Shown: positions 17,627 to 26,094 of the stretch, piece after piece
How the letters are laid out: every line of letters begins with the position of its first letter
Numbering within the stretch: the first letter of the stretch is position 1
Assembly: GCA_023383705.1 (NCBI GenBank)
Contig: JAHDYM010000018.1
Coordinates: 1-39,867, forward strand
Source of the DNA: Gammaproteobacteria bacterium
GTDB taxonomy: Bacteria > Pseudomonadota > Gammaproteobacteria > Steroidobacterales > GCA-2729495
Direction: 5' to 3'
Length of the DNA stretch: 39,867 bases
Position numbers and translations under genes: made by a program
Notes under the pieces: model-generated
Database searches by the model: none
Told to the model about the DNA's origin: nothing
Seen by the model: only the letters and a program-made list of their open reading frames with translations

Positions 17627-18748
17627 TCAACCACCCGGCTGGTAGCTGATGCGGTAGATTGCACCGCGCTCATCGTCACTCACCAGCAGGGACCCGTCCG
17701 GTGCCACCAGCAGGTCTACCGGCCTGCCCAGCACCTTGTCCCCATCAAGCCAGCCCTCGGCAAAGGTCTCGTACGAAACGGCCGAGTTGCCTTTCAGCCG
17801 CACCAGCGAGATCCGGTATCCGGTCCGGCCAGCCTCCTTGCTCCGGTTCCAGGAACCGTGCTCGGCGATGAATACCTGGTTGCGGTACTCGGCCGGGAAC
17901 ATGGTGCCCGTGTAGAACCTGACACCCAGCGGTGCCACGTGCGGCCCCAGCTTCTGCACCGGCGGCTCGGCCTGCGCACAACTGCCGAGCGCACCGAACT
18001 CCGGATCGACCACATCGCCGCCATGACAGTACGGAAAGCCGAAATCGAGCCCGGCCTTCGCCATGCGGTTGAGTTCACAGGCCGGCACATCGTCACCAAG
18101 CATGTCGCGGCCATTATCGGTGAACCACAACTCGCCAGTCTGTGGATGCCAGCTCATTCCGACCGAATTACGCACCCCCCGGGCAATCACTTCACGGCCG
18201 CTGCCATCGGGGTTCATGCGCAGGATCTGGCCGAAGTCCTTCTCGTCGCAGACATTGCAGGGTGCGCCGAGCGGCACATAGAGCTTGCCGTCAGGGCCGA
18301 ACGCCAGGTACTTCCAGGCATGCAGCCCGTTCTTGTAGGGCAAGTCCGCGGCGATCACCTCGGGCACGCGCGGGCCGGCGACCTGCTGCTCGGCCTGCGG
18401 AAAACGCGCGACCTGCCACTGTTCCGCCACGTACAGCGCACCTTTGTGGAAGGCCACGCCGTTCGGAACCTTGAGACCCTGCACGAAGGTGGTGACCTGC
18501 GGACGCTCGCCGAGCGCGTCATGGATCGCATACACCGTTCCCGCACCAAATCGCGTGCCGACGAACAGCGTGCCCGCATCGCCCAGGGCCATGGAACGGG
18601 CCTTCGGCACATCGGCGACGAGGATCTCGGCCTTGAAGCCGGGCGGCAAACGCAGGAAATCGGCAGGCGTTCCGGCCAGCGCAGGTGTACCGGCCAGCAG
18701 GGCGAGAACGAGGCAGAACAAGTGCGTCAGGGAGCGGCAAGAGCTCAT
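17627..18748 (-). CDS. exported sorbosone/glucose dehydrogenase-type beta-propeller
   Basis: 373 residues. Signal peptide of about 26 residues ending TPALA. The rest is a six-bladed propeller of the PQQ-dependent sugar (glucose/sorbosone) dehydrogenase family: LPPGFKAEILVADVPKARSMA at the first blade, then LKVPNGVAF, GVRNSVGMSWHPQTGELWFTDNGRDMLGDD and GRPVDLLVAPDGSLLVSDDERGAIYRI. Four extra Cys in the middle (APCNVC, PACE, PYCHGG, GSC) probably form disulfides; none is in a CxxCH haem motif. Many members oxidise unknown substrates and PQQ binding is not proven. The ATG at 18748 is chosen over a GTG at 18763 because GGAGG lies eight bases before it. It follows dctM by 49 bases. Confidence 0.8.
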   Translation of the reverse strand: MSSCRSLTHLFCLVLALLAGTPALAGTPADFLRLPPGFKAEILVADVPKARSMALGDAGTLFVGTRFGAGTVYAIHDALGERPQVTTFVQGLKVPNGVAFHKGALYVAEQWQVARFPQAEQQVAGPRVPEVIAADLPYKNGLHAWKYLAFGPDGKLYVPLGAPCNVCDEKDFGQILRMNPDGSGREVIARGVRNSVGMSWHPQTGELWFTDNGRDMLGDDVPACELNRMAKAGLDFGFPYCHGGDVVDPEFGALGSCAQAEPPVQKLGPHVAPLGVRFYTGTMFPAEYRNQVFIAEHGSWNRSKEAGRTGYRISLVRLKGNSAVSYETFAEGWLDGDKVLGRPVDLLVAPDGSLLVSDDERGAIYRISYQPGG

Positions 18749-18797
18749 AAGGCTGTCCTCCACAGAGTGTCGGCAGTCCGCGTCAGGGCCTCTTCCA

Positions 18798-20057
18798 TCA
18801 CCTTCCGGTCAGGGCCAGGGACAGCGGGCTGACAAAGGTGATCAACAGTACTGCGACCAGCAGTATCAGCACAAACGGAAAGGTTGCGGCACAGACCGTG
18901 AGTACCGGCTGCTCGAAGCGGTAACTCGAGATATACAGGTTCAGGCCGATCGGCGGCAACAGGTAGCCGAGCTCCATGGTCGCAACGAAGATGATCCCGA
19001 GGTGGACGGGATCGACTCCGTACTGCGCCGCGACCGGCAATATCAGCGGAACGACCAGGACCAGGGCCGAATAGATATGCAGGATACAGCCGATGACCAT
19101 CAGGAAACCGACCAGCAGGAGCAGGAAGGTGGTCTGGCTGGATATGTACCGGGTGACCAGTTCGATCAGCATCTGCGGAACCTGGGCATCGATCATGTAG
19201 TTGGTCGAGGCCAGCGAGATACCGAGGATCAGCAGGATGCCGCCGACCAGCACCATCGAGTCGCGCACGATGCCCGGCAGCTTGCGCAGCGGGATCTCGC
19301 GGTAGATCAGCGTTTCGACCACCAGCACGTAGACAACTGTCACGGCGGCAGCCTCGGAGACCGCGACCAGGCCGCTGTAGATCCCGCCCAGCACGACGAA
19401 CGGCAGTGGCAACTCCCAGATGGATTCGCGGGCGGCCTGCCCGACTTCGCGCCAGGAGAAATCCGAGATCGGACGCCGGTTGGAGCGGTTCATCCACAGG
19501 CAATAGGCGGCCAGCACGAGCATCATCAGCGTGCCCGGCAGGATGCCGGCGACGAACAGCTCGTCGATGGAAACCTCGGCGACGATCCCGTAGATGATCA
19601 GCGGCAGCGACGGCGCAAACAGCAGGCCGAGGCTGCCCGAGGAGGTGACCAGGCCAAGCGTGAAACCTTCCTTGTAGCCGGACTGCACCAGGGCCGGGTA
19701 CAGCAAGGCGCCGATTGCAATGATCGTGACACCCGAACCGCCGGTAAAGGCCGTAAAGAGCGAACAGGTCGCCACCGCCACCATCGCCAGACCGCCCGGC
19801 AGCCAGCCGAGCAAGGCGGAACTGAGGCGTACCAGCCGTGCCGCAGCCCGGCTCTCGCTCAACAGATAGCCCGCAAAGGTGAACAGCGGGATGGCCAGCA
19901 GTATCGGTGTTTCCGCGATACCGAAGATCTCGATGGGGACTGCGGTCAGCGGTATGTCACTGCGCGCGAAGCCGAGCAGCGCGCTGGCGCCGATCACGGC
20001 GAACAGGGGGGCGCCCATCAGCGCCAGCACGATCAGCACGAGGCCGGTCAGGATCAC
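18798..20057 (-). CDS. dctM: TRAP transporter large permease (DctM)
   Basis: 419 residues with about 11-12 hydrophobic helices, DctM family. FTAFTGGSGVTIIAIGALLYPAL and the matching second-half segment PHLGIIFVATMELGYLLPPIGLN-like (here VHLGIIF...) are the two re-entrant hairpin regions of the ion-transporter superfamily, expected to bind Na+ and move substrate with an elevator mechanism. GTG start overlapping the dctQ stop by four bases. Works with DctQ, DctP and TatT encoded directly upstream. Confidence 0.93.
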   Translation of the reverse strand: MILTGLVLIVLALMGAPLFAVIGASALLGFARSDIPLTAVPIEIFGIAETPILLAIPLFTFAGYLLSESRAAARLVRLSSALLGWLPGGLAMVAVATCSLFTAFTGGSGVTIIAIGALLYPALVQSGYKEGFTLGLVTSSGSLGLLFAPSLPLIIYGIVAEVSIDELFVAGILPGTLMMLVLAAYCLWMNRSNRRPISDFSWREVGQAARESIWELPLPFVVLGGIYSGLVAVSEAAAVTVVYVLVVETLIYREIPLRKLPGIVRDSMVLVGGILLILGISLASTNYMIDAQVPQMLIELVTRYISSQTTFLLLLVGFLMVIGCILHIYSALVLVVPLILPVAAQYGVDPVHLGIIFVATMELGYLLPPIGLNLYISSYRFEQPVLTVCAATFPFVLILLVAVLLITFVSPLSLALTGR

Positions 20058-20593
20058 GACTGCGATCCACGGCGCGACAAGGCGAGCAACCGGCTGCCCA
20101 CCGCGATCAGATACCGGTAGGCGATCAGCACAAAGCCGGCCGGCAACACGGTCTGGAACGGCCAGACCGGCAACTCGCCGAAAATCTGGTCACCGAACTC
20201 GCGGGACTCCGCGACAAACTCCCAGGAATACCAGGCCAGCACGCCGGCAACGGCCACCGTAAACAGGTCGACGATGATTGCGGTCACCATGCGTCCGGTC
20301 CGGGAAAGAAACCGCGAAAGCAGGTCTATGCGCAGATGCACGTTGTCCCTGCTGGCAGCCACCGCACCGATGATCGCCGCCCACAGCACCATCAGCCGCA
20401 AGGCTTCATCCGCCCAGCCGATGCCTGTGCCCACGACGTTGCGCAGCATGACCTGGTAGGCAGCCAGACCGATCATGGCGAACAGGATGATGGCAAGCAG
20501 CAGGTTTTCGAGCCCGCGCCCGATGCGTCCGGCCCACTGCAGAAGGCCGCCCGGCTCGCCGGACTGGTCCGGCGACTGCGGCGACCAGCTCAC
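20054..20593 (-). CDS. dctQ: TRAP transporter small permease (DctQ)
   Basis: 179 residues, four predicted helices (about residues 24-46, 61-80, 99-121, 141-160). DctQ family signs are LLAIILFAMIGLAAYQVMLRNVVGTGIGWADEALRL with Trp-Ala-Asp-Glu, and HLRIDLL between helices two and three. It scaffolds the DctM permease. GTG start overlapping dctP by four bases, so the transporter genes are translationally coupled. Confidence 0.92.
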   Translation of the reverse strand: MSWSPQSPDQSGEPGGLLQWAGRIGRGLENLLLAIILFAMIGLAAYQVMLRNVVGTGIGWADEALRLMVLWAAIIGAVAASRDNVHLRIDLLSRFLSRTGRMVTAIIVDLFTVAVAGVLAWYSWEFVAESREFGDQIFGELPVWPFQTVLPAGFVLIAYRYLIAVGSRLLALSRRGSQS

Positions 20594-21636
20594 TGTGGCG
20601 AACCAGCCGCCTTGGTGGCCGGCCGGCTGGCGCGATACTCCTGCACATAGCCGCGGGCCTCACGCAGCAGATCGGCGGAGAAGCCACCGCTGGCCGCCAG
20701 CTTGTCCATCGCAGCGGCGGTCGATGCCCGCCACACCGGCACTTCCGCCGGATCCAGCTGCAGGAACTGCATGCCGTTCGCCCGCAGGGCGCTCTCGGCC
20801 TTGGCGTTGTCGATGCGGTTCTGCGCGTCGAAATGCTTGTAGAGCTTCGTCATCACCTCGCGCAGCACGGCCTGATCGGCTGCACTGATGCCCGTCAGCG
20901 CATTCTTGTCGATGGCGAGCAGGCCGATCGTGTAGCTGAGCGGCTGGGTCGTGATGTACTTCGTTTTCGTATACCACTGCAGCACCACCGCACCGACCGG
21001 CGGTGTCGCCACGATGTTGAGCAAACCGGTCTGCAGTCCCGTGAGCACATCGGTGACCGGCAAGGCAACGGGCGACAGCTGCAGTGATTCCATCGCGGCA
21101 TAGCTGCTCGGGTCCCCTTCCGGCACCCAGATTTTCTGGCCACGCAGGTCGGCGATGCCCTTTACCGGCTTGTTGGACATCAGGTAGGCAAAGCCGCCGC
21201 CGGCAAAGCCGAAGGATACGAAGCCGGCCTTCTCCAGTCCGGCAGACAGCCGGTCATCGAGCCGGCTGCGCACGAAATCCACTTCGTCGAGCGTGTCAAA
21301 CAGCATCGGCGAACCGTAGATGACGATGTCCGGATACCGCTCCTGCAGGCCGTTGGAGGTGAACACGCCGCCGTGCAACTGGCCGATCCGGATCTTGCGC
21401 AGCACCTTCCGGTCCGTGCCCTGTATGCCACCACCATAGAACTTCAGGTTGACGCGACCCGCCGTGCGTTCCTTGATCTGCAGGCCGGCAGCACGCAGGT
21501 CTTTCATCCACGACGAGCCCTCGGGTGCAACCGTGGCGATCTTCAGGTCAGTCGCATGCAGCACGGCAGGCAGACAGACGCCGGCGAGAATGATCAGGGC
21601 GCGCAGTGCCCCCAGGCTTCGTTGCAGCGGAATCAT
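20590..21636 (-). CDS. dctP: TRAP transporter periplasmic binding protein, TPAT (TatP-like) type
   Basis: 348 residues, signal peptide about 1-28 (PAVLHA before TDLKIATVAPEGSSW). DctP fold: FYGGGIQGTDRKVLRKIRIGQLHGG, and DLRGQKIWVPEGDPS near residues 163-177. In classic DctP/SiaP proteins this last motif is LKGLKIRVP, whose Arg clamps the substrate carboxylate; here Trp170 replaces it. That and the adjacent tatT gene place the protein in the TPR-associated TRAP group, for which a hydrophobic or otherwise non-carboxylate ligand has been proposed from Treponema pallidum Tp0957. The true ligand is unknown. ATG 15 bases after the tatT stop. Confidence 0.88.
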   Translation of the reverse strand: MIPLQRSLGALRALIILAGVCLPAVLHATDLKIATVAPEGSSWMKDLRAAGLQIKERTAGRVNLKFYGGGIQGTDRKVLRKIRIGQLHGGVFTSNGLQERYPDIVIYGSPMLFDTLDEVDFVRSRLDDRLSAGLEKAGFVSFGFAGGGFAYLMSNKPVKGIADLRGQKIWVPEGDPSSYAAMESLQLSPVALPVTDVLTGLQTGLLNIVATPPVGAVVLQWYTKTKYITTQPLSYTIGLLAIDKNALTGISAADQAVLREVMTKLYKHFDAQNRIDNAKAESALRANGMQFLQLDPAEVPVWRASTAAAMDKLAASGGFSADLLREARGYVQEYRASRPATKAAGSPQ

Positions 21637-21651
21637 CGGAATAACCTGCCT

Positions 21652-22566
21652 CTAGAAATAATCTTCGGCTGAAGCCAGCAGCTCGGTGGCCTGCCGCTGG
21701 GCCAGCATGTTGAACAGTGTATAGCCGGGCTGGCGGGGATCCGCCTGCATCACCTCGTTCAGGAGCTGGTCGTGCAGTTCGCGGTCGTAGACCAGGCGCG
21801 CATAACCGCGCGCATACTCGACGAGTACGCCAAGGTCACGCCGGCCGGTCAACTCCAACGCACGCTCGAAATAGGTCCGCCCGCGTTCAGGCTGCCCGCC
21901 GAGCGCCTCCGGCCGCAGCGTATTGAGCACACCAAGATAGGTATTGACCAGCGCCGCATCGCTGTCGGGACTGATCGCCAGCAAGCGGGTCAGGATGGCC
22001 TCTATCCGGGGCAGTTCGGCGAGCGCTTCCCAGTCATCGCCATGCGTCCTGATATAGGCCAGCGAGCCGATCACATAGCCCAGCAGTGCCGAGGCATCGT
22101 CGGCACCGGCCTTGCCGAGCTGCTGCTCCAGCTCCGCATAGGGCAACCTGTCGATACCACAGCCAGGCCGCCGGCCATCGGCGCACAGCGCCCGCACACC
22201 GTAGTCGCGCGCATGCACCGCGAGATTTGCCGAGCGGGCGGAATCCGTGACGAACACCACGGCATAGGCGGCATAGAGCCGGGCCGCTGCACCGAGTACC
22301 TCGCCAGAGGCCTCGGGCGATGCCGCCAGCGAATCCAGGATCAGCAGATAGGCCGGCAGGCTGTCGCGGACAAGCTCGGGATCATCCTGGTTGAGGATTG
22401 CCGACGAGAGATTCGTGGCGAAGTCCGCAGCGGCGGATTGCGCCATGCTGGCGCAGCCTGACAGCGCGCCACCACACACGAACAGAACCGCTGCGACTGC
22501 GTGACGCAGCCTGAGCCCGGGCCGGTATGGCTCCGGGCCAGCGCGATGCCTCGGCGGACTGCGCAC
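21652..22566 (-). CDS. tatT: TatT-family TPR lipoprotein partner of the TRAP transporter
   Basis: 304 residues. A basic N-terminus, a hydrophobic stretch and lipobox LSGC place acylated Cys38 at the mature end. The remainder is helical: LLILDSLAASPEASGEVLGAAARLYAAYAVVF, a Gly/Cys-containing loop, then TPR-like helices ending QPGYTLFNMLAQRQATELLASAEDYF, typical of the TAtT family. In T. pallidum, Tp0956 of this family is a trimeric lipoprotein that docks the binding protein. The start is GTG at 22566 without a strong Shine-Dalgarno sequence, only 17 bases after the rplS stop; a shorter start nearer the signal core is possible. Confidence 0.85.
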   Translation of the reverse strand: MRSPPRHRAGPEPYRPGLRLRHAVAAVLFVCGGALSGCASMAQSAAADFATNLSSAILNQDDPELVRDSLPAYLLILDSLAASPEASGEVLGAAARLYAAYAVVFVTDSARSANLAVHARDYGVRALCADGRRPGCGIDRLPYAELEQQLGKAGADDASALLGYVIGSLAYIRTHGDDWEALAELPRIEAILTRLLAISPDSDAALVNTYLGVLNTLRPEALGGQPERGRTYFERALELTGRRDLGVLVEYARGYARLVYDRELHDQLLNEVMQADPRQPGYTLFNMLAQRQATELLASAEDYF

Positions 22567-22583
22567 CGGCGAGTCCCGGGGGA

Positions 22584-22928
22584 TCAGACCTTTTCGCGAA
22601 TACGTGCGGACTTGCCGCTGCGATCACGCAGGTAGTAGAGCTTGGCCCGGCGCACGGCACCACGACGCTTCACGGTGATCTCCGCGATCGTCGGGCTGTG
22701 CAGCGGGAAGACGCGCTCCACGCCCTCGCCATGCGACACCTTGCGCACCGTGAACGACGAGTTCAGACCCCGGTTCCGGCGGGCGATAACCACGCCTTCA
22801 TAGGCCTGCAGACGCTCGCGGTTGCCTTCCTTGACCCGCACCTGTACCACGACGGTGTCGCCCGGCACGAAGTCGGGAATCCCGGTCTTGAGGGCTTCGG
22901 ATTCGAGTGTTTCGATGATGTTTCGCAT
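22584..22928 (-). CDS. rplS: 50S ribosomal protein L19
   Basis: 114 residues, usual length. [26 protein letters not shown] at the N-terminus and the [25 protein letters not shown] core are standard. L19 sits at the 30S-50S interface. The ATG at 22928 is preferred over a TTG at 22940 because it matches the family start. It ends the rpsP-rimM-trmD-rplS cluster but is followed at once by tatT. Confidence 0.97.
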
Positions 22929-22988
22929 GGTCGTGTCCAACTCTGTTCAAACGCCTGTTCAAGCCCGTCTGCATCGACCGGTACCGGT

Positions 22989-23759
22989 CTAATGCAACGG
23001 GCGGTTATCGTCCTCATTCCCGAGTCGCCGCTCCTCGAGAAACTCGTCGAGCAGCCTGCGATCCTCGGTCGTCAGGCTCCGGCCCTGCAGCAGCTCGGGC
23101 CGGCGCAGACTGGTCCTGCCGAGTGCCTGCTTCCTGCGCCAGCGGCGGATGGCTTCGTGATCACCCGCCAGCAAGACGCCGGGAACGGCCCGGCCCTCCA
23201 CAACTTCAGGCCGCGTGTAGTGCGGGTGATCCAGCAGCCCGGCCGAGAATGAATCCTCGACAGCCGACTGCCCATCGCCCAGCACACCAGGCAGCAATCT
23301 CACGGTCGCATCGATGACGGCCAGGGCAGCAAGCTCGCCGCCACTCAGCACGAAATCACCAAGCGACAACTCCTCGTCGCAGACCATCTCGATCAGACGC
23401 TCATCGAAGCCTTCGTAACGGCCCGCGACCAGCACCATTCCGGGCAGCGTCGCCAGCCGTCGCGCAACCGCCTGGTCGAACTTCCGGCCCTGGGGCGTCA
23501 GGAAAATCACCGGGCTTCCCCCGGGGACCTGACTCCGTGCAGCCGCTATCGCGGTTGCACAGGGCTCGACCCGCAGCAGCATTCCCGGGCCACCGCCATA
23601 GGGCCGATCGTCCACCGTTCCGTGCACGTCGGTCGCATAGCCACGCGGATCCACGCTGCCTACCCGCACCAGTCCGCGCTGCACTGCCCGGCCGACCACA
23701 CCAAGTTCCGTGAATGGCGCGAGCATCTCCGGGAACAGCGATACCACCGCGATATCCAC
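22989..23759 (-). CDS. trmD: tRNA (guanine37-N1)-methyltransferase
   Basis: 256 residues, SPOUT knot enzyme that makes m1G37 next to the anticodon and prevents frameshifting. SAM-binding knot residues are visible in [23 protein letters not shown] and [19 protein letters not shown]; the catalytic Asp-containing C-terminal domain carries [11 protein letters not shown] start ([12 protein letters not shown]). Follows rimM after 36 bases. Confidence 0.97.
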
Positions 23760-23795
23760 GCTCGGCGCATCCTCGTCTTCAGCCGCGGATCCCGG

Positions 23796-24308
23796 CTAAA
23801 AATCGGGATCCCAGTCAACCGTGATCACGCGCTGGTCCGTATCGACTCCGGTAACCACCCTGCCGTACAGGAAGGGCACCAGGTGCCGGCCTTCACCGAC
23901 CACGACCATCACATCGTTGGCGCCGGTCTCGAACAGGTGATCCACACTGCCAAGAACCACGCCAGTCAGGGTCTGAACCTTCATCCCCTGCAAATCTGTC
24001 CAGTAAAACTGCTGCCGGCCCGCCTTGCCGAGTACAGCCCGATCCACTTCTATGCCTGCCCCGGTCAGGGCTTCCGCTGCATCCCGGTCATTGACGCCGT
24101 CGATCAGGGCAACGACACCATCACCGTGCGCACGCCCGGCAAGCAACTTCACCTGCCGGCTCTGGCCATCCACGACCAGGTACCAGGGACTGTAGCCAAC
24201 GATGTTCTCGCGAGGATCCGTGTACGAGTACACCTTTACCCAGCCACGAACCCCGAACGAACCGCTGATCCTGCCGACTGCAACCCTGTTGTCATTCGCT
24301 GCAGTCAT
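23796..24308 (-). CDS. rimM: ribosome maturation factor RimM
   Basis: 170 residues. N-terminal RimM domain (VAVGRISGSFGVRGWVKVYSYTD) and C-terminal PRC-barrel (FYWTDLQGMKVQT, LVPFLYGRVV). It binds S19 and assists 30S head maturation. The ATG at 24308 is directly preceded by a strong hairpin and has no exposed Shine-Dalgarno sequence, suggesting translational restraint. Confidence 0.95.
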   Translation of the reverse strand: MTAANDNRVAVGRISGSFGVRGWVKVYSYTDPRENIVGYSPWYLVVDGQSRQVKLLAGRAHGDGVVALIDGVNDRDAAEALTGAGIEVDRAVLGKAGRQQFYWTDLQGMKVQTLTGVVLGSVDHLFETGANDVMVVVGEGRHLVPFLYGRVVTGVDTDQRVITVDWDPDF

Positions 24309-24343
24309 GGGTTGCGGATACCGGCAACGCGTACCGTCAACCC
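24309..24343 (-). promoter_or_regulatory. mRNA hairpin abutting the rimM start codon
   Basis: In the minus-strand message GGGTTG-A-CGG-TAC (24343-24331) can pair with GTA-T-CCG-CAACCC (24321-24309), about 12 base pairs with one-base bulges on each side and a nine-base loop. The stem ends at the base before the rimM ATG, covering the place where a ribosome-binding site would be. In E. coli the rimM (21K) start in this operon is known to be held down by mRNA structure, lowering RimM and TrmD relative to S16 and L19; a similar role is inferred. Confidence 0.5.
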
Positions 24344-24383
24344 GCGACGGGCCTCACGGTCCCGCAACAGTGAACGGCAGTGC

Positions 24384-24650
24384 TCAGGCGGCCTTGGCAA
24401 CTCCGGCCTGGCGCCGAATGCTCTTCAACAGCGAGGCGACACGCTCGGAAGGCTGGGCGCCGACACCGGTCCAGTACTCAACGCGCGCCAGGTCGATGCG
24501 CAGCTTTTCTTCATTCGCGGTAGCCATGGGGCTGAAAAAACCAAGCCGCTCGACGTAGCGGCCATCTCTGGCGCGCCGCGAGTCACAAACCACGATATGG
24601 TAAAAGGGCCGCGCCTTGGCGCCTCCGCGGGACAGACGGATCGTAACCAT
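24384..24650 (-). CDS. rpsP: 30S ribosomal protein S16
   Basis: 88 residues, full length, [21 protein letters not shown] start and [10 protein letters not shown] core. Early-assembly 30S protein. First gene of rpsP-rimM-trmD-rplS, transcribed away from ffh with a 97-base gap that holds a candidate promoter. Confidence 0.97.
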
Positions 24651-24701
24651 CGTTCTGCTAATTCCTGTTAAATCTGAAAGCCGGGCAGGTGTAAGCCGGC
24701 A

Positions 24702-24730
24702 ATCTTACTTGAAAATTCGGCAATTGGCAC
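24702..24730 (-). promoter_or_regulatory. candidate promoter of the rpsP-rimM-trmD-rplS operon
   Basis: On the minus strand GTGCCA (24730-24725) and TAAGAT (24707-24702) are 17 bases apart, each matching four of six sigma-70 positions, inside a locally AT-rich stretch 51 bases before the rpsP ATG. Confidence 0.4.
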
Positions 24731-24747
24731 CGTTCCCGGCGGTTTGA

Positions 24748-26094
24748 CTATCGCCCGAAGCCCGGCAAGCCCCGCAGCATGCGCCGCAAGCCGCCCTGCC
24801 CCATCTTTTTCATCATTTTCTGCATCTGGGTGTACTGCTTGAGCAGCTGGTTGACCGCCTGCACGGGCAACCCGGCACCGGCGGCAATGCGCTTCCGGCG
24901 CGATCCGTCGATGAGCCCGGGCCGGCGGCGCTCCCGGGGGGTCATCGAGTTGATGATCGCGATCTGGCGACGCAGCATCCGCGGGTCCACCTGTCCGGCC
25001 AGCTTTTCGGCCGACATGCCAGCCGGCAGCGGCAGCTTGCCGAGCATGCTCTCGACCCCACCGAGACCGCTGATCTGCTCGAGCTGGGCACGCAGGTCGT
25101 TGAGATCGAACTGCTTGCCGGAGGAGATCTTCTCGGCCAGTTGCGCCGCGGCCGCGTGATCGGCCTTGCGCTGCACCTCCTCGACCAGCCCCAGCACGTC
25201 ACCCATGCCGAGGATCCGCGAGGCCATGCGGTCGGGATGGAATGGCTCCAGTTCGTTAACTGCCTCACCAGTACCGAGAAACTTGATCGGCGCACCGGTC
25301 ACCGCCTTGACGGACAGCGCGGCGCCACCGCGTGCATCGCCATCGGTCTTGGTCAGGATCACACCGGTAAGCGGCAACACGGCGGCAAATGCCTGGGCCG
25401 CATTCACGGCGTCCTGGCCAGCCATGCTGTCGACGACAAACAGCGTCTCGATCGGCGCGGTGCGCTCGCGCATCTCGCGCACTTCATCCAGCAGGCTGCT
25501 GTCGAGACGGCTGCGGCCGGCGGTGTCCAGGATCAGGACATCGAGCTGGGCCAGGCGGGCAGCCTTGAGCGCCTGGTCGGCAATTGCCAGCGGGCCCAGC
25601 CCGGGCTCTGCACCCAGATAGGGAACATCGATCGATGCAGCCAGCCGCTCCAGCTGCAGCATGGCGGCCGGACGCTGCGTATCGGTACTGGCGAGACCCG
25701 CCCGCTTGCCCAGCCGCTCGCGGATGTAGACCGCCAGCTTCGCAGCGGTCGTGGTCTTGCCTGCGCCCTGCAGACCTGCCAGCAGGATGACGGCTGGCGG
25801 CTGATGGCGCAGGTTCAGCTCGGCGACGCCCTCACCCAGGGTTGCCGTCAACTGCTCATGCAGGATCTTGATGAAGGCCTGCCCGGGCGTCAGGCTGCGC
25901 AATACCTCCGCGCCAACCGCACGCTCGCGCACGCGTGCGACGAAGTCGCGGATCACGGGCAACGCAACGTCAGCCTCGATCAGCGCCCGCCGCACATCGC
26001 GTACGGCATCCTCGATATTCTCTTCGGTCAGCCGTCCGCGACCACGCACCTGGTCGAGAACGCCACGTAACCGCTCGCTGAGACTGGCAAACAT
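24748..26094 (-). CDS. ffh: signal recognition particle protein Ffh
   Basis: 448 residues. N domain about 1-90, G domain with P-loop GLQGAGKTTT (107-116), DTAGR, and TKTDGDARGGAALS, then the Met-rich M domain ending MQKMMKKMGQGGLRRMLRGLPGFGR that binds signal sequences and 4.5S RNA. It targets nascent membrane proteins to FtsY. Divergent from a corB-like gene; in E. coli ypjD also lies here but is absent in this window. Confidence 0.97.
   Translation of the reverse strand: MFASLSERLRGVLDQVRGRGRLTEENIEDAVRDVRRALIEADVALPVIRDFVARVRERAVGAEVLRSLTPGQAFIKILHEQLTATLGEGVAELNLRHQPPAVILLAGLQGAGKTTTAAKLAVYIRERLGKRAGLASTDTQRPAAMLQLERLAASIDVPYLGAEPGLGPLAIADQALKAARLAQLDVLILDTAGRSRLDSSLLDEVREMRERTAPIETLFVVDSMAGQDAVNAAQAFAAVLPLTGVILTKTDGDARGGAALSVKAVTGAPIKFLGTGEAVNELEPFHPDRMASRILGMGDVLGLVEEVQRKADHAAAAQLAEKISSGKQFDLNDLRAQLEQISGLGGVESMLGKLPLPAGMSAEKLAGQVDPRMLRRQIAIINSMTPRERRRPGLIDGSRRKRIAAGAGLPVQAVNQLLKQYTQMQKMMKKMGQGGLRRMLRGLPGFGR

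Follow-up and report, generated by a model that had tools for sequence, protein, structure and literature searches.

Tryptophan at the place of the carboxylate-clamping arginine in the binding protein of a proteobacterial TPR-protein-associated TRAP transporter

What does a TRAP transporter take up when its periplasmic binding protein lacks the arginine with which such proteins clamp carboxylates? The question is raised by a 39,867-nucleotide stretch of a gammaproteobacterial genome (NCBI GenBank assembly GCA_023383705.1, contig JAHDYM010000018.1), hereafter the window, in which a DctP-family protein reads KIWVP at residues 168–172, placing Trp170 where DctP-type TRAP proteins have the carboxylate-clamping Arg. 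A sequence-only reading of the window had called attention to this motif and to the missing Arg, and both are borne out by the reading of the ORF and by alignment to the solved classical TRAP binding proteins 4p47, 4n8y, 4xfe and 4ng7, in which Trp170 falls on the Arg of KIRTL/KIRV. The same reading had described the Arg as near-universal elsewhere, in agreement with its presence in 96.8% of 6142 sequences (PMC4646407). The protein, here designated TatP, is encoded within the following group of genes:

17627-18763, minus strand: GSDH-family gene (glucose/sorbosone dehydrogenase-like beta-propeller), 34 bp after dctM
18798..20057, minus strand: dctM, large TRAP membrane subunit (PF06808, E 3.2e-83; TIGR00786), with a 4-bp overlap with dctQ
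20054..20593, minus strand: dctQ, small TRAP membrane subunit (PF04290, E 2.1e-28), with a 4-bp overlap with tatP
20590..21636, minus strand: tatP, DctP-family periplasmic binding protein of 348 aa (PF03480, NF037995, AF2 model), with a signal peptide without lipobox
21652..22566, minus strand: tatT, TRAP transporter T-component (PF16811, E 5.6e-63), with the lipobox LSGC and Ala at +2

The tatP gene runs from an ATG at 21636 to a stop at 20590, and tatT lies upstream of it across a gap of 15 bp. Membership of TatP in the DctP family is established by its PF03480 match (E 1.1e-30, 107.4 bits against a curated cut-off of 23.4), and its AF2 model (mean pLDDT 93.2, built with 50 sequences) has a fold matching those of TRAP binding proteins and of Tp0957. 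One operon carries a PF16811 gene, a DctP-type binding protein gene and dctQM, the gene set of a TPR-protein-associated TRAP transporter (TPAT), and tatT-tatP-dctQ-dctM is a TPAT of the Treponema pallidum Tp0956/Tp0957 type. TPATs are a recognised, little-understood kind of bacterial uptake system described in 2012. The source genome (2.93 Mb, 96% complete) yielded a single PF03480 match and a single PF16811 match, both at this locus, and as far as these searches show TatP is the only DctP-type binding protein of that genome.

The assignment is reinforced by TatT, which has the helical, TPR-like fold of Tp0956. Its AF2 model (mean pLDDT 95.4) finds its best structural match in Tp0956 itself (4di3_A, Z 26.0, rmsd 2.4, 252 residues aligned; 3u64, Z 25.6), followed by 8g52, an entry described as a TPAT family transporter (Z 24.1), and by the TPR domain of PTPIP51 (Z 18.7), which binds and transfers phospholipids in vitro (PMC9239997). 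BstC, which binds 4-methylsterols (PMC10942540), is matched at Z 17.2 (7t1s_B, rmsd 3.8, 223 aligned). The modelled resemblance to lipid-binding proteins is no more than suggestive, because further TPR proteins follow from Z 16 down. Besides the fold, TatT has the lipobox LSGC, with the consensus LxGCAS in relatives; the alignment is the better guide here, as a regular-expression count over stop-to-stop frames, in which true starts are unset, undercounts the lipobox of TatT. Ala at position +2 of a lipoprotein points to sorting to the outer membrane, and TatT is probably situated there. TatP, on the other hand, probably moves freely between TatT and DctQM, since its signal peptide has no lipobox and a lipobox-like match occurred in just 3 of 168 TatT-adjacent TatPs by the regular-expression count. 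Two Cys residues and a C-terminal Phe (a YF end) are also invariant among the TatT proteins; they may reflect a disulfide and an interface with TatP.

Within TatP, three positions of the binding site deserve attention:

21129-21127, minus strand: codon TGG of Trp170, which takes the position of the clamp Arg in alignments and column comparison
21187..21189, minus strand: codon of Ala150, which pairs with the GFRNLT Arg when TatP is aligned to 4p47
21004..21006, minus strand: codon of Thr211, which pairs with the QENP Asn when TatP is aligned to 4p47

The places of Ala150 and Thr211 are those that we take to correspond to SiaP Arg127 and Asn187. Position 150 is Ala in 76% of TatPs and mixed in classical controls, while the column of Thr211 holds Asn in 22 of 31 controls and mostly Ala, Thr, Ser, Ile or Gly in TatPs. 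In these alignments, canonical pocket places other than that of Trp170 are altered as well. Position 170 is nevertheless the most discriminating column between TatPs and classical proteins (Jensen-Shannon divergence 1.00), and TatP lacks the Arg that marks SiaP-type carboxylate binding. Residues 168–172 lie in a strand of the AF2 model; in SiaP-type proteins the clamp Arg is likewise on a strand, with its side chain directed into the cleft (PMC5812351), and Trp170 is predicted from the alignment to face the cleft as well.

How general is this replacement? DctP homologs came from three sources: a protein search in relatives, a TatT-based search across the class, and a scan of genome contigs. 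Classical paralogs from the relatives' genomes served as controls. Sampling bias toward residue 170 can be dismissed: the contig scan used four peptide patterns, none of which covers position 170, and the PF16811 scans chose loci by TatT and not by the binding protein. Among the 168 binding proteins with TatT within 2.5 kb, 166 have Trp, two have Phe and none has Arg. The 166 include copies of the window's own gene as well as other near-copies; with these removed, 140 Trp and two Phe proteins beside TatT stand against 31 Arg controls. Where no TatT was found, the counts were 35 Arg, five Trp and one Leu, that is, Arg in 35 of 36 once the five Trp cases are set aside. Of these five, L092 retains a TatT tail at the contig edge, and L094, L132 and L139 start at a contig edge; L121 (1-950), a Trp-type TatP preceded immediately by another protein gene and not by tatT, is the sole clear exception. 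The association of Trp or Phe with TatT is thus near one-to-one. Trp170, which might have been thought peculiar to the window's protein, is instead a clade-wide signature, and Trp-type TatPs span the Pseudomonadota, Thermodesulfobacteriota and Myxococcota.

Nor is Trp170 a sequencing slip, because Trp is kept in same-genus proteins (66–90% identity) and in all other close relatives covering the region. The notion that the Arg was lost by drift in a decaying or non-functional binding protein has next to no plausibility in the face of an intact operon and of Trp in 140 of 142 non-redundant TatT-adjacent sequences from three phyla; such conservation rules out both drift and error at this residue.

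A quick maximum-likelihood tree adds a phylogenetic dimension. A branch with SH-aLRT 95 sets off all Trp rows, the two Phe rows (L037 and L039, both TatT-adjacent) group with Tp0957 (80), and the Trp, Phe and Tp0957 rows together are separated from the Arg rows (SH-aLRT 97). TatP accordingly groups with Tp0957 and not with Arg-type proteins, Tp0957 being a long branch in this tree. The link to Tp0957 suggested by the sequence-only reading is in this way upheld by the TatT neighbour, by the TatT fold and by the tree. Aligned to the Phe of L039, Tp0957 has Ala at the Arg place, in agreement with the published account (PMC4646407). Trp170 is most likely a replacement of the clamp Arg that became fixed in the proteobacterial TPAT clade. 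A second TatP subgroup (L033, L036, L045, L048 and similar loci) carries RIWLWQGD instead of K(I/V)WVPEGD; these proteins form their own clade (99) beside their own TatT genes, and some genomes have both kinds of TatP.

What ligand might such a cleft hold? Our view of pocket hydrophobicity, ligand class, transport direction and the part played by the Trp side chain is one that we infer from the foregoing and from T. pallidum, for which the proposed route leads a hydrophobic molecule from TatT, an anchored lipoprotein whose pore is hydrophobic, to TatP and thence to TatQM (PMC5812351); a hydrophobic pocket in Tp0957 and a pore in Tp0956 have been published (PMC4646407, PMC5812351). We consider it fairly probable that the window's protein, as the TatP of a TPAT with Trp170 as a fixed replacement of Arg, has a cleft that holds a hydrophobic ligand by apolar contacts. 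The lipoprotein TatT, probably outer-membrane-bound, would admit to its pore a molecule that is hydrophobic and perhaps lipid-like, and hand it to TatP, whose cleft would grip it by apolar contacts instead of a salt bridge, with Trp170 forming part of the wall; with Trp for Arg, the cleft would accommodate an uncharged or apolar portion of the ligand. TatP would then deliver its cargo to DctQM for import driven by an ion gradient.

The loss of the Arg had been taken from the outset to argue for a different, perhaps hydrophobic ligand. The absence of the residue and the published view of TPATs speak for this; as proof, however, the loss does not suffice, because Csal_0678, a TRAP binding protein without the Arg, binds ethanolamine (PMC4646407). 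That precedent invites an alternative in which TatP binds a small polar or cationic ligand without a carboxylate, such as an amine or alcohol, with Trp170 engaged in cation-pi or stacking interactions aided by Asp175 or Glu173. Asp175 is 96% conserved in TatPs and far less so in controls, and the Glu173 position is mostly Glu or Gln, yet such a ligand would have no obvious use for TatT, a pore protein with lipid-binding relatives (PMC10942540, PMC5812351), and we regard this reading as unlikely. Rather unlikely, too, and slightly more so, is a fatty acid or other amphipathic acid whose carboxylate would be held elsewhere or by water while Trp borders the site of the acyl chain. SiaP without its Arg still binds sialic acid via water at high concentration (PMC4646407), and the basic residues conserved in TatP by column comparison include Arg123 and Lys81; against this, SiaP mutants lose much of their affinity (PMC4646407), and the other canonical polar places of the TatP pocket are changed too. 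In the apolar cleft that we favour, an aromatic side chain might, as suggested earlier, stack on a ring or line a lipid-sized cavity; the Ala of Tp0957 shows that an aromatic is not needed in every TPAT.

The genomic surroundings bear on the history of the system. The TPAT genes follow the ffh-rimM-trmD-rplS cluster, starting 17 bp after rplS (18798-26094, minus strand, with the TPAT genes included). Upstream of tatT, rplS is found in 42 of the 69 loci that extend far enough to show it, in all but one within 140 bp, and TatT is present in 35 of the 36 relatives that belong to this genus or family; the rplS linkage and the spread of TatT fit vertical inheritance. Perhaps the TPAT is co-expressed with the translation genes, and a transporter co-transcribed with such genes would be unusual; a scan for promoters turned up no sigma-70-like site there, a result of little weight when taken alone. 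At the other end of the operon, the GSDH-family gene can be rejected as a fifth, obligatory TPAT part, being found in 22 of 62 related loci. Searches of the source genome gave no FadL-family match, and FadL as an alternative lipid route complementing the TPAT finds no backing among 60 relatives, in which it shows no inverse relation with TatT. The source genome likewise has no match to the cyclase family PF13243, and on this ground we reject traffic in sterols or hopanoids made by the cell itself. It is tempting to speculate that proteobacterial TPATs constitute a vertically inherited, ion-coupled route of lipid import or retrieval, often located directly behind trmD-rplS, with Trp170 as a fixed and functional element of a lipid-sized cleft. 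We hold this wider proposal to be doubtful; if true, it would mean ion-coupled transport of a membrane lipid or other hydrophobic molecule, work otherwise known mainly from ATP-driven systems.

TatP is an ordinary member of an established kind, the proteobacterial TPAT binding proteins, and earlier publications had already put forward both that TPATs have lost the Arg and that their ligand is hydrophobic. Across all DctP proteins without the Arg, the residue most often found in its stead is Phe (PMC4646407), and TatP homologs were described as having mostly Ala at the Arg place (PMC5812351), where the present survey finds Trp instead. The near-invariant Trp was not found in the TPAT literature searched, whose scope excluded the primary 2012 papers, and we do not claim it as new. 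Its practical value is that one column, with Trp, Phe or Ala versus Arg, tracks TatT in nearly all loci surveyed and offers a simple marker for TPAT binding proteins, which annotation pipelines label as plain DctP. Free-living proteobacterial TPATs furthermore provide tractable proteins for a ligand search.

Set beside known systems, the locus most closely resembles the T. pallidum TPAT (Tp0956, Tp0957 and TatQM), with which it shares the gene set, the TatT fold, a DctP fold without the Arg, and a clade in the quick tree. The two differ in that T. pallidum has a single tatQM gene (PMC5812351), whereas dctQ and dctM are separate here, and in that Tp0957 is a lipoprotein with Ala at the Arg place, whereas the window's TatP has Trp170 and no lipobox; the two binding proteins are 20–21% identical. 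With classical DctP proteins such as SiaP, TatP shares PF03480, the fold and the dctQM partners, but it departs from them in its missing clamp Arg, its Ala150 and Thr211, and its TatT neighbour. The sterol-binding BstC of Methylococcus capsulatus belongs to the same TatT superfamily as the window's TatT; its partners, however, are the PhnD-like BstB and BstA, not DctP and DctQM (PMC10942540).
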